Part shown: positions 1,504-7,428 of the stretch, piece by piece
Numbering within the stretch: position 1 is the stretch's first letter
Layout: each line of letters opens with the position of its first letter
DNA from: Chloroflexota bacterium
GTDB taxonomy: Bacteria > Chloroflexota > Dehalococcoidia > Lucifugimonadales > Lucifugimonadaceae
Direction of reading: 5' to 3'
Assembly: GCA_027623655.1 (NCBI GenBank)
Contig: JAQBVG010000009.1
Location: 1 to 45,809 of the forward strand
DNA length: 45,809 nucleotides
Program-made: the position numbers and the translations under genes
The notes under the pieces: model-generated
What the model was told of the DNA's origin: nothing
Seen by the model: only the letters and a program-made list of their open reading frames with translations
Database searches by the model: none

Positions 1504-2583
1504 CTACTCCTGGTGGAGTGTCACCGAGCGCATGGGCGGTGCGAACTGGTGCGGTTCAAGGTGGATGGCTTCCTTCTGATATACCTGCACTCGATACGAA
1601 CCGGTGTCCGTGATGAACAGATGGCCTTCAGCGTCTACCGCGATCGATTTCGGCTGACGCAGTAGTTTCTGGGGTTCCAGCACAGACATGTCGCGTATGC
1701 GGTTCGGGCTGGCGTTGGTCATCATGTATTCACGAGCGACCCTGGATAGCGTGGCATCTCCGATGAATTTCTCGACGTACCTCCCATGCGCGTTGAAGAG
1801 TTGGACACGGTTATTTCCACGATCGCACACGTAGATGTCGCCATCGAGATCGACCGCTACGTCGGTTGGTCGATTGAATTCACCGTTGGCAGAGCCTGAA
1901 CTGCCAAATTTCATGATGAATTCCCCGTGGGCGTTGAATTTTTGCACGCGATCGTTGCGCCAGTCAGCGACATACACGTCGCCAAGTTCGTCGACGGTTA
2001 TGCCCCAGGGCATGTCGAGTTGACCGTCGCCATCGCCGGAACCGCCCCAGCCAAGGATGAACTTCTCGTCTTTGGTGAATTTCTGAATACGGTGGTTCAT
2101 CGAATCGGCAATGTAGATGTTTTCATCAGCGTCGAAGGCCATACCGGCCGGTCGGTTCAGTTGGCCTGGACCCGAGTCGAACTCCCCGAAGCTTGCCAGG
2201 AATTCGCCTTCGCTGTTGAACGAGCTGATCCGATGTAGTGCCTCATCCGAGACATAAATGTTTTCTTCCGAGTCGGCAATTATCGACACAGGCCACTGGA
2301 ATTGGCCGTCGTCCTCGCCGACTGACCCAAAGTTTCCACCGTCTTCGTCATCAAACGAATATTTGCGTACCAGTGCAGCGCCTTCCTGACGGCAGAGGAT
2401 GTACATCCGACCTTCGGCGCCGAGGGCGATATCGACAGGAAAGTTGGTCAGACGCCGCATTCCGAGCGTCTTGAGGAACGGGAATCCTGCACGTAGAAGT
2501 CCATACGGTCGACCCATTACATAATCTCCAGTAGTACCGGCGAGAAATTCACTTCCTCCACCTTTTGAAAAGCCGTTTGCCAC
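1504..2583 (-). CDS. NHL-repeat (six-bladed beta-propeller) protein
   Basis: Repeated F-G-x-GQxxxPxGIAVDxxGxIYVADxxNHRIQxF units, e.g. WGITVDELGDVYVADWRNDRVQKF and DVAVDLDGDIYVCDRGNNRVQLF. Confidence 0.9.
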   Translation of the reverse strand: MANGFSKGGGSEFLAGTTGDYVMGRPYGLLRAGFPFLKTLGMRRLTNFPVDIALGAEGRMYILCRQEGAALVRKYSFDDEDGGNFGSVGEDDGQFQWPVSIIADSEENIYVSDEALHRISSFNSEGEFLASFGEFDSGPGQLNRPAGMAFDADENIYIADSMNHRIQKFTKDEKFILGWGGSGDGDGQLDMPWGITVDELGDVYVADWRNDRVQKFNAHGEFIMKFGSSGSANGEFNRPTDVAVDLDGDIYVCDRGNNRVQLFNAHGRYVEKFIGDATLSRVAREYMMTNASPNRIRDMSVLEPQKLLRQPKSIAVDAEGHLFITDTGSYRVQVYQKEAIHLEPHQFAPPMRSVTLHQE

Positions 2584-2596
2584 TCGGGCGCAAGCG

Positions 2597-3763
2597 TTAT
2601 GCGACCCGGAAGGGGTGCAGTTGTTCGTATTTGCCGCGAACGATGTCGACCGAGTCGACGCTCATCCACTGCTCCAGGAGCGTCGCGTAGACACCCCGGA
2701 AATCGAACGTATGCGCCAGGTCTTCGCCGTTTGCGAACGTTTTAGGACCGAGCGATTGGTAACCGGCGTACAGACCACCATCGACTCTTTCGCCGATGGT
2801 GAACGCACCACCGCCTGAGCCGTGATCGGTTCCGCTACCGTTGTCCTGGACCCTGCGTCCAAATTCGGTGAAGGCGTAGATGACGACTTCTTCCGCAGCG
2901 TCGTGCTCACGCAGGTCGTCCATGAAGTCTCGTAGCGCTCCCGATAGCTCCGCAAGTAGTTTTTCGTGCGCTGGCATCTCGACCGCGTGATGGTCGTACC
3001 CGGCGTGCTGGACGTAGAAGATTCGCGTACCCAGTCCAGCGATGTGGGTCCGTGCCACGTCGCGCAGGCTTTTTCCGATCGGGTTGTCTTCATATTCGAC
3101 TGTTGATTCGTACCTGCCGGGCACCGACTGCAACTGGTCAATGCCGTTCAAGACATCGTCACCGGTCTGCTTCAGGTAACTCATCGTTGCACCGGTACCG
3201 ATGGCGGGGGTGTAAAAGCGTTTGAAGATGTCCAGGGCCTCGGCGCGCTGTTCCTCGATTTCGACCGATGTCATCAGGCCGTAGGTGTCGAGGTCTCCGA
3301 CAGATGTCACTCTCACGCCCGGAGCTGCCATTGCGCGCGGCAGGCCTCTACCGAAGCTGACGCCGGTGAGCACGTTCTTCCCATCTGGATCGAGTTGCTT
3401 GATCGCTTTTGCGAGCCAGCCTTCGGTTGAGATTGTTTTAGGTTCCGCCGTGTGCATGATGTCCATGGCGCGGAAATGTGATCGGTTCGAGTTCTCGTAT
3501 CCGATGCCCTGGATGATTGCCACGTCACCCCTGTCGTACATCTCCTTCAAGGGAGCCGCGGAGGGGTGGAACCCCAGTTGATCGTTGAGCTTTATCACCC
3601 TGTCTTCAGTAATCCGCACGGTCTTCCTGGAGTCGTAGTAAAGACCGGATGTATACGGCACCAGCGTGTTCATGAAGTCGTTTCCGCCGGTCATTTGAAC
3701 TACGACCAGGACGGGCGCTTTACCGATCTTCTTTTCAGTTCCGTTGGTTGCCATTGAAGGCAT
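2597..3763 (-). CDS. DUF1501 family protein
   Basis: MTGGNDFMNTLVPY...LGFHPSAAPLKEMYDRGDVAIIQGIGYENSNRSHFRAMDIMHTA...FTEFGRRVQDNGSGTDHGSGG; located next to its usual partner DUF1800. Confidence 0.92.
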   Translation of the reverse strand: MPSMATNGTEKKIGKAPVLVVVQMTGGNDFMNTLVPYTSGLYYDSRKTVRITEDRVIKLNDQLGFHPSAAPLKEMYDRGDVAIIQGIGYENSNRSHFRAMDIMHTAEPKTISTEGWLAKAIKQLDPDGKNVLTGVSFGRGLPRAMAAPGVRVTSVGDLDTYGLMTSVEIEEQRAEALDIFKRFYTPAIGTGATMSYLKQTGDDVLNGIDQLQSVPGRYESTVEYEDNPIGKSLRDVARTHIAGLGTRIFYVQHAGYDHHAVEMPAHEKLLAELSGALRDFMDDLREHDAAEEVVIYAFTEFGRRVQDNGSGTDHGSGGGAFTIGERVDGGLYAGYQSLGPKTFANGEDLAHTFDFRGVYATLLEQWMSVDSVDIVRGKYEQLHPFRVA

Positions 3764-3831
3764 CTCCTTGGATTTCCCGGGGATTTTTTGTCTGGAGCAG
3801 GTTCAGGTTTGTTGTTAACTGAGCATGCAGG

Positions 3832-5224
3832 CTAGGCGTACTGGTATTCAGGAGTTGCGACAATAAGGCGGATCATTCGCACTGCCCGGGACCGATCGTC
3901 GTCGCCCTCACTCCTGGCAGCAAACTGGACCAGTGCTTCACGGGTGGGGTCTTCGACGTCGATTGGCCCCATCGCATCGAGGGCGGCGTCGACGAACGAT
4001 CCGTGAGACGTGAGCGAGTCACTTTCGATCATGCGGTCGACGATCTGCTTGATGCCGGGTGAACTGCCATCGCCAACCTCCCCGACCGCAAAGTTGACCC
4101 GTTCTGTAAGGTTCCCACCGTCGATCCACTCTTTTCCGGTGTGCCAGCCTTCGACGGTCGGTGGGTCGAGAAGTTTCTGTCCCATTACGACCATCACCGA
4201 CTCAGCATATTTCGCGAGGCCCGGGTGGAAGTAGTCGTGAGTGCTCACCATCTTCAGAACCCCGAGCACCAGTTCGACCGGGCTTTTCACTTTTTTGAAC
4301 CGGGCTTCCCTGAACGAGTCAGAGTTGAACATGACTCTCAGTACAGGTTTTATCTGGCCGTCGGAGTCGAGGAAGGCATCGGACATGTCTTCGATCAATG
4401 CGGGGTCGAGCGGTGGCAGGTCGTTCCACGTCGGTACCTGGGGTTCGTCGGCGACGAAGAAGTTGTAGAGATGACGTGACACGAATCGGGCGCAAGAGCG
4501 TTGTTCGACGATGATGTCGATGATGTCACCACCATCCAGATTGCCCCTGTGGCCCAAAAATTCTTTTTCACCGTTGTCGTGATCGTCAGCGTCGAAAAGG
4601 AACTCGCTGGCATAGTATCCATGCGGGTACAGAGGCGGCGACTGGGCGAATGTCCAGCCGGTAAATGCGCGGGCTGCGTTCTTGATATCGATCTCGGTAT
4701 AGTTGCCAACTCCGAGGGAGAAGAGCTCGAGCAGTTCTCGGCCGTAGTTTTCATTCGGCTCGCCGTTGTGGTTTTCGTTATTGTCCAGCCAGAAGATCAT
4801 TGCCGGATCACGAGACAGGTCAAGCAGAATCGTTCGCATATCGGACATGCCGTTGCGTCGGAACATTTCGAGCTGGATCGAGGCCGAGAGAATGTGCTCG
4901 TTCTTGGCAAGACCGGTGGCGAAGACGTGGTGCCAGAACAGCGCCATTTTTTTCCTGCAGCTGGTTCCGGGAATTGAGCATGCGGTACATCCATGTGGCG
5001 AGATATGCGTGCGGTGCCTCGCCGCCCATGTATCGGGCTATCTCGTCGTCCGGGACGCCGTTCTCAGGATCCGGGTTGAGCAGAAACTCGACCAGGTCGG
5101 CGTAGTCGTTCGCTGCAAGCTGGTCGACCTGATTGCGCGTTGCGCCAAAACCGGCTCGTCGATAGAGATGCGCCAGTAGCGCCGGATCGGTCTTTGCCCC
5201 AATCCCAATCGCGGTAGTGCTCAT
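3832..5224 (-). pseudogene. DUF1800 family protein, split into two reading frames (4820..5224 N-terminal part, 3832..4947 C-terminal part)
   Basis: N-terminal ORF MSTTAIGIGAKTDPALLAHLYRRAGFGAT...WMYRMLNSRNQLQEK loses frame in an A7 run; C-terminal ORF MALFWHHVFATGLAKNEH...NYGRELLELFSLGVGNYTEIDIKNAARAFTGWT continues in a +1 frame. Confidence 0.85.
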
Positions 5225-5444
5225 TTACCAGGACCTCCCAAGGCCAACCCGCCACGTCAAGGATTACCTTATGGCACACTCGACAGTTACGGTGTTTTAC
5301 TGCGATGCACGGTCGGATTCTGCCGTTACACACCAATTCCAGTTCGAAAGCTGACGGTATTCCCTGTGTCCGGGTCAGTTTAGAACTGACTGGCCTGCAG
5401 AGCAATTCGAAAATCGGGCGTTCCAAAAATATGGGCAAAATTAA

Positions 5445-5560
5445 AGGTAACGTTGCTTAACACCGCTGTTCCCCGGTGGCGATAAATAATGGTGAATAGA
5501 CGCGAATGTTTCGTTCTGTGTTCAGACAAGATCGACAATACGATTGCTGCAACGTTACCT
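5445..5560. repeat. inverted repeat AGGTAACGTTGC (5445-5456) / GCAACGTTACCT (5549-5560) upstream of the DUF5131 gene
   Basis: Perfect 12-bp inverted arms, 15/16 when extended by TTAn; the right arm ends 27 nt before the GTG start at 5587. Confidence 0.7.
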
Positions 5561-5586
5561 CTAATTTCTTCAGTGAGGGATCAAGC

Positions 5587-6291
5587 GTGGCTGGCAAAAC
5601 TTCAATCGAATGGACTGAAAAAACTTGGAACCCAGTAACGGGGTGTACGAAAGTGAGCGCGGGCTGCGACAACTGCTACGCGGAGAGGATTACTCGCCGT
5701 TTCGGGGGCGATTTCACGAAAGTTATTCTCCATCCTGAAAGATTGGATGCCCCTGTCAGGTGGAAAAATCCGACGACAGTGTTCGTAAATAGTATGAGCG
5801 ACTTGTTCCACTCCGGCGCGGTACCGTTCGATTACGTCGATCGTGTGTTCGATGTCATGGAGAAGTGCCCGCAACACACGTTCCAAATTCTGACGAAACG
5901 CCCAAGTCGCATGAAACACTTCCCGCGTGAATGGCCACGTAATGTGTGGGCGGGAACCAGTGTTGAAAGCACAGAAACTGCCTGGAGGATCGATCAACTG
6001 AGGCAGGTTGATTCCCATGTACGATTTCTGTCCCTCGAACCGTTACTTGGCGCCCTTCCGAATCTTGATTTGAACGGAATCGGTTGGGTGATCGTTGGTG
6101 GAGAGAGCGGTCCGGGCCATCGAGAGATCAGGGAAGAATGGGTACTCGAAATAAAAAGCCAATGTATCGACGCCGGTGTACCGTTTTTCTTCAAACAATG
6201 GGGCGGTATACGGCCCAAAACTGGAGGGCGCGAACTTGCCGGCAGGCTTTGGAGTCAAATGCCCCGGTCGCCTCAATTAGCAGCAGTATGA
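5587..6291 (+). CDS. DUF5131 / phage Gp37-Gp68 family protein (three-Cys-motif protein)
   Basis: GTG start at 5587 inside ORF 5506..6291: MAGKTSIEWTEKTWNPVTGCTKVSAGCDNCYAE...SMSDLFH...FQILTKRPSRM...GVPFFFKQWGG; C-x6-C-x2-C motif and FFFKQWGG signature. Confidence 0.93.
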   Translation: MAGKTSIEWTEKTWNPVTGCTKVSAGCDNCYAERITRRFGGDFTKVILHPERLDAPVRWKNPTTVFVNSMSDLFHSGAVPFDYVDRVFDVMEKCPQHTFQILTKRPSRMKHFPREWPRNVWAGTSVESTETAWRIDQLRQVDSHVRFLSLEPLLGALPNLDLNGIGWVIVGGESGPGHREIREEWVLEIKSQCIDAGVPFFFKQWGGIRPKTGGRELAGRLWSQMPRSPQLAAV

Positions 6292-6318
6292 GCGACAGGT
6301 GTAGATTTACTTGCATCA

Positions 6319-7428
6319 ATGCCGCAACACGACGACTTTTTTAATACCGAACTCGATGAAGAGTCACGGATAAAACTCGGGACTCTCAGTTGGTTTCTTG
6401 CTCCGTGGACCCAGAAACTGGGAAGTTGGGCTCGGCAGAACGGTCAAAATACCGTTTGGTACGTCGACGGGTTTGCCGGTCCAGGCAAGAACGAAGCTGG
6501 AGAGCGTGGATCTCCACTAATTGCTGCCACGCGAGCGGAACAGTTGGTGAGGCACGGTAATCCCTCGGAATTTGAACTCGCCTTGTTTAATGTGGAAAAG
6601 ATACCCGGTAACTTCGAAAAACTAGAGGTGAATTGCAAACCATTTATCGATGGCGGAACACGGATCATTAACGGTAAAGGGCTGTTCGCTGACCATGTTT
6701 CCGAAATCGTCGGTTTGACAGACGGACCTCCTGTCCTGCTATTCATCGATCCCTGGGGTTTTACTGGATTCGAGTTCGATACTTTAGTACCGCTGTTTGC
6801 AAGAAGCGCTCCGCTAGACATCGTCATGAGGTTGCACCACAGAGCAATCCCACGGCTCAAACCTGAGCGAGCCGCAATGGTGAGTGCGACGGTAGGTTCG
6901 GATCACTGGCAGGCAAATTGGGCTGATCTGAACATGGATCAAAAAGTACACCAAACATTGGATACTCTGAAGGATTCATACACGGCACGGGGCAGATTCA
7001 GTAGCGTCCTGTTTTATCCAGTTCGACTGCATCCCCAAGCCAAACCGGCTTACTCCTTAGGATTTGCGAGTCGACACATCGAGGCATTCCGGCTGTGGAA
7101 CGACAAAATCGGCGGTATTGAATCCGAAATTCATGAACGTGCCGATCATCCAGATTCAGGACAACAGGCAATGGAACTGACCGGGCTAAGTGACACCAGA
7201 TTCAACACGATTCGAGACGAAGTAACAAAATACTTTGAGCGGCATCGAGGAAATACTTGGCAAAACGCGTACGACTGGCTAATTTTCAACAGCAGCACCT
7301 TCGTGCGCGAAACCGAGCTCACGAATACTATTGACCAGCTTGTAAACATCGGCGTAGTCCGCCGTGTCGGGGGGCCAGGCCGAGGGACTCGCAAGGGAAT
7401 GTTTTCAGCCGTCAAGAATTCCGTTTAG
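6319..7428 (+). CDS. tcmP: three-Cys-motif partner protein TcmP
   Basis: FLAPWTQKLGSWARQNGQNTVWYVDGFAGPGKNEAGERGSPLIAATRAEQL...LLFIDPWGFTGFEFDTL; immediately downstream of DUF5131, its usual neighbour. Confidence 0.9.
   Translation: MPQHDDFFNTELDEESRIKLGTLSWFLAPWTQKLGSWARQNGQNTVWYVDGFAGPGKNEAGERGSPLIAATRAEQLVRHGNPSEFELALFNVEKIPGNFEKLEVNCKPFIDGGTRIINGKGLFADHVSEIVGLTDGPPVLLFIDPWGFTGFEFDTLVPLFARSAPLDIVMRLHHRAIPRLKPERAAMVSATVGSDHWQANWADLNMDQKVHQTLDTLKDSYTARGRFSSVLFYPVRLHPQAKPAYSLGFASRHIEAFRLWNDKIGGIESEIHERADHPDSGQQAMELTGLSDTRFNTIRDEVTKYFERHRGNTWQNAYDWLIFNSSTFVRETELTNTIDQLVNIGVVRRVGGPGRGTRKGMFSAVKNSV

Follow-up and report, generated by a model that had tools for sequence, protein, structure and literature searches.

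Organization of the locus and gene assignments

The window analyzed here, a 45,809-nucleotide stretch of DNA from a Chloroflexota bacterium, contains two plus-strand genes, which encode a DUF5131 (Gp37/Gp68) protein and TcmP. They are flanked by a minus-strand DUF1800-DUF1501-NHL operon (the NHL identity was assigned by eye) and by a minus-strand aldo/keto reductase gene. The features of the cassette are as follows.

5587..6291, plus strand: DUF5131 (Gp37/Gp68), predicted radical-SAM-type protein of 234 aa, GTG start, PF07505
about 5644-5676, plus strand: sequence encoding the DUF5131 Cys cluster, CTKVSAGCDNC
6319..7428, plus strand: TcmP, predicted RlmJ-like class I SAM methyltransferase of 369 aa, TIGR04474, with a C-terminal helical winged-helix-like extension
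7405..7428, no strand: 24-bp tail-to-tail overlap of the TcmP and reductase genes, from the sequence
5407..7408, no strand: inserted segment, approximate and with an uncertain left edge, from blastn/tblastn of 18 same-genus loci
arms 5438-5456 and 5549-5567, plus strand: 19-nt inverted repeat in the DUF5131 leader, single copy

An earlier note on this DNA, made from the sequence by eye, had named both protein families and both sets of neighbors, and these assignments hold: DUF5131 hits Pfam PF07505 at 9.4e-91, and TcmP scores 105 bits with TIGR04474 (6.4e-30; cut-off, 53 bits). The two motifs it had pointed out in DUF5131, CTKVSAGCDNC (C-x6-C-x2-C) and FFFKQWGG, are both present, as are the 27-nt gap between the genes (6291 to 6319) and the 24-bp overlap with the convergent reductase gene. 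The start of the cassette at 5445 needs correction. ATG 5506 opens the longest DUF5131 reading frame; however, a GAGGG lies 7 nt upstream of GTG 5587 and homologs begin at this GTG, so the gene probably spans 5587-6291 rather than starting at 5506 or 5445.

The cassette was inserted at this site

Comparison with same-genus genomes shows that the cassette at this site is an insertion and was horizontally acquired, because it adjoins the reductase gene in none of the 17 congeners with enough flanking sequence, and two of them (G004 and G008) retain an empty junction in which the DUF1800 operon adjoins the reductase gene with ~400 bp between them. The reductase ortholog itself is present in 18/18 genomes at 83 to 90% identity; DUF5131 is missing from 16 of these. 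The earlier note had named vertical inheritance in all relatives as incompatible with its reading, and the synteny comparison it had proposed instead reveals empty sites in congeners. Homology to the empty-site relatives restarts at about 7407-7409, where the reductase gene ends; therefore, the last TcmP codons and the stop codon lie antisense to the 3' end of the reductase gene itself. No tRNA that could serve as an attachment site was found within the window, and no long direct repeats were found flanking the insert.

The neighboring operon also varies. The NHL-DUF1501-DUF1800 operon (1504-5224) lies beside the reductase gene in 2 of the 17 resolvable relatives and is missing in at least 12 others, and in 12 relatives the neighbor of the reductase gene is the one found on the far side of the DUF1800 operon in the present genome. 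Hence, a few lineages have the DUF1800 operon at this site, and only the present lineage has the cassette there.

The base composition of the cassette is distinct from that of its surroundings. The AT richness that had been judged by eye was confirmed by calculation: GC content is 0.512 in the cassette versus 0.566 in the window, no 1.84-kb segment other than the cassette itself has a value this low or lower, and GC3 is 0.51 to 0.54 in the cassette genes versus 0.62 to 0.70 in their neighbors.

DUF5131 and TcmP form a recurrent, mobile pair

The pair is recurrent and mobile. Among 60 related genomes, including that of the present organism, 12 carry DUF5131 and 11 carry TcmP, with 10 having both (Fisher p ~9e-9). 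TcmP lies within 400 bp, on either side or in convergent orientation, of 67 of the 80 genomic DUF5131 genes nearest to the present one and of 29 of 81 DUF5131 genes in viral contigs, both sets being the best-scoring matches rather than random samples. These figures bear out the statement of the earlier note that the two families are regular partners. One genome (G010) has TcmP without DUF5131; its partner may have been cut off, since the TcmP gene is close to a contig end. A same-genus genome (G015) has a DUF5131/TcmP pair of its own, at a different locus and with the opposite gene order. No DUF5131-TcmP fusion was found among 6,099 open reading frames.

DUF5131 occurs across many bacterial phyla, often with TcmP, and is also present in phages (161 records) and plasmids (403 records). 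The two proteins evolve at different rates, with a mean pairwise identity of 55% for the slow-evolving DUF5131 and 23% for the fast-evolving TcmP. Their distances correlate weakly but beyond what permutation produces (Mantel r 0.18, 0/2000).

DUF5131 is likely a radical SAM protein

Fold and profile comparisons make it likely, but do not prove, that DUF5131 is a radical SAM protein. Its AF2 model (pLDDT 93.5) has strands followed by the cysteines and then a helix. In a Foldseek search of the PDB with this model, the top five matches were all spore photoproduct lyase (probability 0.97 to 1.00), with moderate TM-scores of 0.43 to 0.49 and E values of 2e-3 to 2e-2, none of which passes 1e-3. Because the phylum has too few homologs of spore photoproduct lyase to build a profile from, PA0069-type proteins were used to make a radical SAM profile. 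The hhalign comparison of DUF5131 with this profile gave an E value of 5.7e-5 (2e-4 with a larger alignment) at a probability of 47 to 66%; the unrelated control profiles gave 0.46 (TIM barrel of the reductase) and 0.28 (TcmP). Searches of the PDB with the single DUF5131 and TcmP sequences gave nothing useful, and the DUF5131 profile found only chance matches among PDB sequences.

Cys47, Cys54, and Cys57 (261-aa numbering) are kept in essentially all of 173 homologs, in which the GGESG, TKR, and EP motifs are also near-invariant. The profile alignment places WNPVTGC-x6-C-x2-CYAER of DUF5131 over INPYRGC-x3-C-x2-CYAR of the PA0069-type proteins, with WNPVTGCTKVSAGCDNCYAER aligned to INPYRGCR---HACVYCYAR. 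The CX6CX2C spacing of DUF5131 differs from the canonical radical SAM CX3CX2C and, as the loop aligns only with a 3-residue insertion, it can be read as CX3CX2C carrying three additional residues. DUF5131 thus resembles the spore photoproduct lyase/PA0069-type proteins in its fold match, an alignable Cys loop, and D-[LP]-[FY] and TK[RS] motifs, and differs from them in the Cys spacing and in a low overall similarity. In these comparisons, the Cys cluster is compatible with an Fe-S site, which would narrow the metal or Fe-S cluster of the earlier note to that of a radical-SAM-type protein.

DUF5131 also has significant homology to the NCBIfam family TIGR04471 (radical SAM mobile pair A), at 1e-27. 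The score of 97 bits is far below the equivalog cut-off of 355 bits, and no members above the cut-off were found in the phylum. The partner in TIGR04471 pairs is a second radical SAM protein, whereas the partner here is TcmP.

TcmP is a predicted methyltransferase nearest to RlmJ

TcmP is predicted to be a class I SAM methyltransferase whose nearest match is RlmJ, the 23S rRNA m6A2030 methyltransferase. A profile search with TcmP retrieved RlmJ structures first (2.5e-6), and in Foldseek its AF2 model (pLDDT 88.0) matched Escherichia coli RlmJ (6qe5) best, at 5.2e-6, with RlmJ and then Trm1 as the nearest structures. The VWYVDGFAGPG segment, which the earlier note had compared to a nucleotide/SAM-binding Rossmann loop, falls at motif I (DxFAGxG) of this predicted fold, so that reading now has the backing of both profile and fold. 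Motif I and the acidic motif II are well conserved, with D50 and G54 each in 96 of 98 homologs and E/D93 in 98 of 99.

K18 and D164 of RlmJ are essential for methyl transfer (PMC3814359). Their putative counterparts in TcmP are K19, which is K in 97/97 homologs, and D144, which is D in 103/103; D144 was equated to D164 by alignment, and K19 to K18 only by its position in the first helix. The likeness to RlmJ thus would take in the Rossmann core, the GSP loop, the acidic motif II, and the catalytic Lys and Asp. Unlike RlmJ, TcmP has a shorter insert between motif I and the GSP loop, a DUF5131 partner, and a C-terminal extension, winged-helix-like by eye, that is present here and in about half of TcmP proteins, the long ones. 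TcmP also differs at motif IV: most of 103 homologs have DP[F/Y]G, the present protein has DPWGF, and DPPY is absent. Its target atom may therefore differ from that of RlmJ and not be an exocyclic amine, or TcmP may be inactive.

Association of the pair with defense and phage genes

The pair is already known as an uncharacterized PADLOC candidate, and this study adds the predicted enzyme class of both proteins and a clean insertion. In PADLOC, DUF5131 matches M41B (8.8e-100) and M30B (9.6e-95), and TcmP matches M30A (7.6e-11), weakly and over part of its length (residues 5-155). The cassette has the two-gene layout of PDC-M30/M41, with adjacent A-type (TcmP) and B-type (DUF5131) genes, and differs from it in standing alone outside any restriction operon. 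PDC candidates derive from a guilt-by-embedding search (PMC10855318, PMC12988326). In the papers found, PDC-M30 appears only as a PADLOC call in Pseudomonas aeruginosa (PMC10855318, PMC11878078), and a TcmP gene was listed with the Hna defense gene in Sinorhizobium (PMC12445080). In the literature searched, we found no functional test or experimental validation of the pair, of PDC-M30/M41, or of either protein, no mention of DUF5131, and no paper combining RlmJ, radical SAM, and phage.

In three related genomes, one from the same family and two from the same order, DUF5131 lies between a type IIG-like methylase gene and a gene for a PLD-SNF2 helicase related to DISARM DrmD (loci L035, L038, and L039), and TcmP accompanies it at two of the three. 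This operon type is possibly a restriction-like system of its own. Genes for type I, IIG, and III modification are, together with MADS genes, among the PADLOC matches obtained for 121 genes flanking pairs in many phyla; most flanking genes are varied and often housekeeping, and the count is a raw tally of these flanks. Among the neighbors of viral DUF5131 genes without TcmP, DNA methylases are the most repeated Pfam matches, and in one annotated prophage a TcmP-less DUF5131 gene is close to RecE, RecT, and DNA methyltransferase genes. The PADLOC listing and the related loci among restriction-type genes would fit a role of the pair in conflict with phages.

A model for the function of the cassette

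From the computed folds, conserved residues, pairing, and mobility, we infer a horizontally mobile two-enzyme nucleic acid modification cassette that serves conflict with phages or mobile elements, a reading to which we give a probability of roughly 0.55. DUF5131 would be a radical-SAM-type enzyme of the spore photoproduct lyase/PA0069 branch, whose three cysteines would hold a [4Fe-4S] cluster, leading to cleavage of SAM and radical chemistry on a nucleic acid. The RlmJ-related TcmP would bind SAM as well and methylate the same nucleic acid, either at the base made by DUF5131 or at a nearby base. The shared substrate is ambiguous, since the target of RlmJ is RNA and that of spore photoproduct lyase is DNA; DNA would be the likelier one. 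The product could act as a standalone mark at the present locus and as part of restriction-like operons elsewhere.

In an alternative account, TcmP methylates rRNA or tRNA, as RlmJ does, and DUF5131 modifies the same RNA, which would protect translation from attack by a phage or toxin or alter decoding. Both tRNA and rRNA are targets of radical SAM enzymes, many of which are known, and the nearest structures to TcmP, RlmJ and then Trm1, are RNA methyltransferases. We nevertheless consider this account unlikely, as the closest matches of DUF5131 are to a radical SAM enzyme that acts on DNA, phage copies of DUF5131 lie near DNA methylase and recombination genes, and in some genomes the pair lies embedded next to genes for DNA methylases and helicases. 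The structural matches of DUF5131 could be taken to mean that DUF5131 reverses a DNA lesion in the manner of spore photoproduct lyase, the enzyme in all of its top five hits, with TcmP as a helper. A patchy, mobile distribution and a close tie to a fast-diverging partner (55% versus 23% identity) are unlike a repair enzyme, however, and a second SAM enzyme is not required for repair, which makes such a function improbable.

The compact, mobile two-gene layout would also suit a toxin-like abortive system, with one enzyme producing a harmful nucleotide or base under the control of the other. Such a system would loosely recall viperins, which are prokaryotic radical SAM defense enzymes. Viperins are described as antiviral systems (PMC12988326). 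DUF5131, however, aligns with lyase/PA0069-type proteins, no viperin structure is among the matches listed, and DUF5131 occurs alone in phages, which is unexpected for a strict toxin; we regard this as the faintest prospect of those considered.

The pair might together make a new hypermodified base, by a radical SAM reaction on a nucleic acid base followed by a non-DPPY methylation. This more specific proposal is tentative, and we would sooner expect it to be wrong than right. If true, it would be a new DNA or RNA marking chemistry spread by phages, plasmids, and defense operons; more generally, if the pair marks DNA or RNA, it would do so by a new two-step modification that serves in conflict with phages and plasmids. 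Casting the two proteins as radical-SAM-type and RlmJ-type enzymes turns an unknown function into specific, testable predictions.

Other features of the locus and its relatives

The arms of the inverted repeat in the DUF5131 leader are 95% complementary, with 92 nt between them, and the RNA fold has a z score of -2.2. We rejected the repeat as a general feature, whether a shared noncoding RNA or a mobile-element end, because other pairs show no excess over the control, Rfam gives no match, and the genome has no second copy.

In one same-genus genome (G005), phage-like contigs carry two TcmP-less DUF5131 genes (L031 and L032); the L032 copy is followed by genes that by eye resemble those for DNA methylases and an ASCH protein.

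A frameshift near 4946-4953, where seven consecutive T (A on the coding strand) occur, splits the DUF1800 gene beside the cassette in this assembly (4820-5224 and 3832-4947); the gene is intact in G004 and G008. Either an assembly error or a true pseudogene could account for the split.
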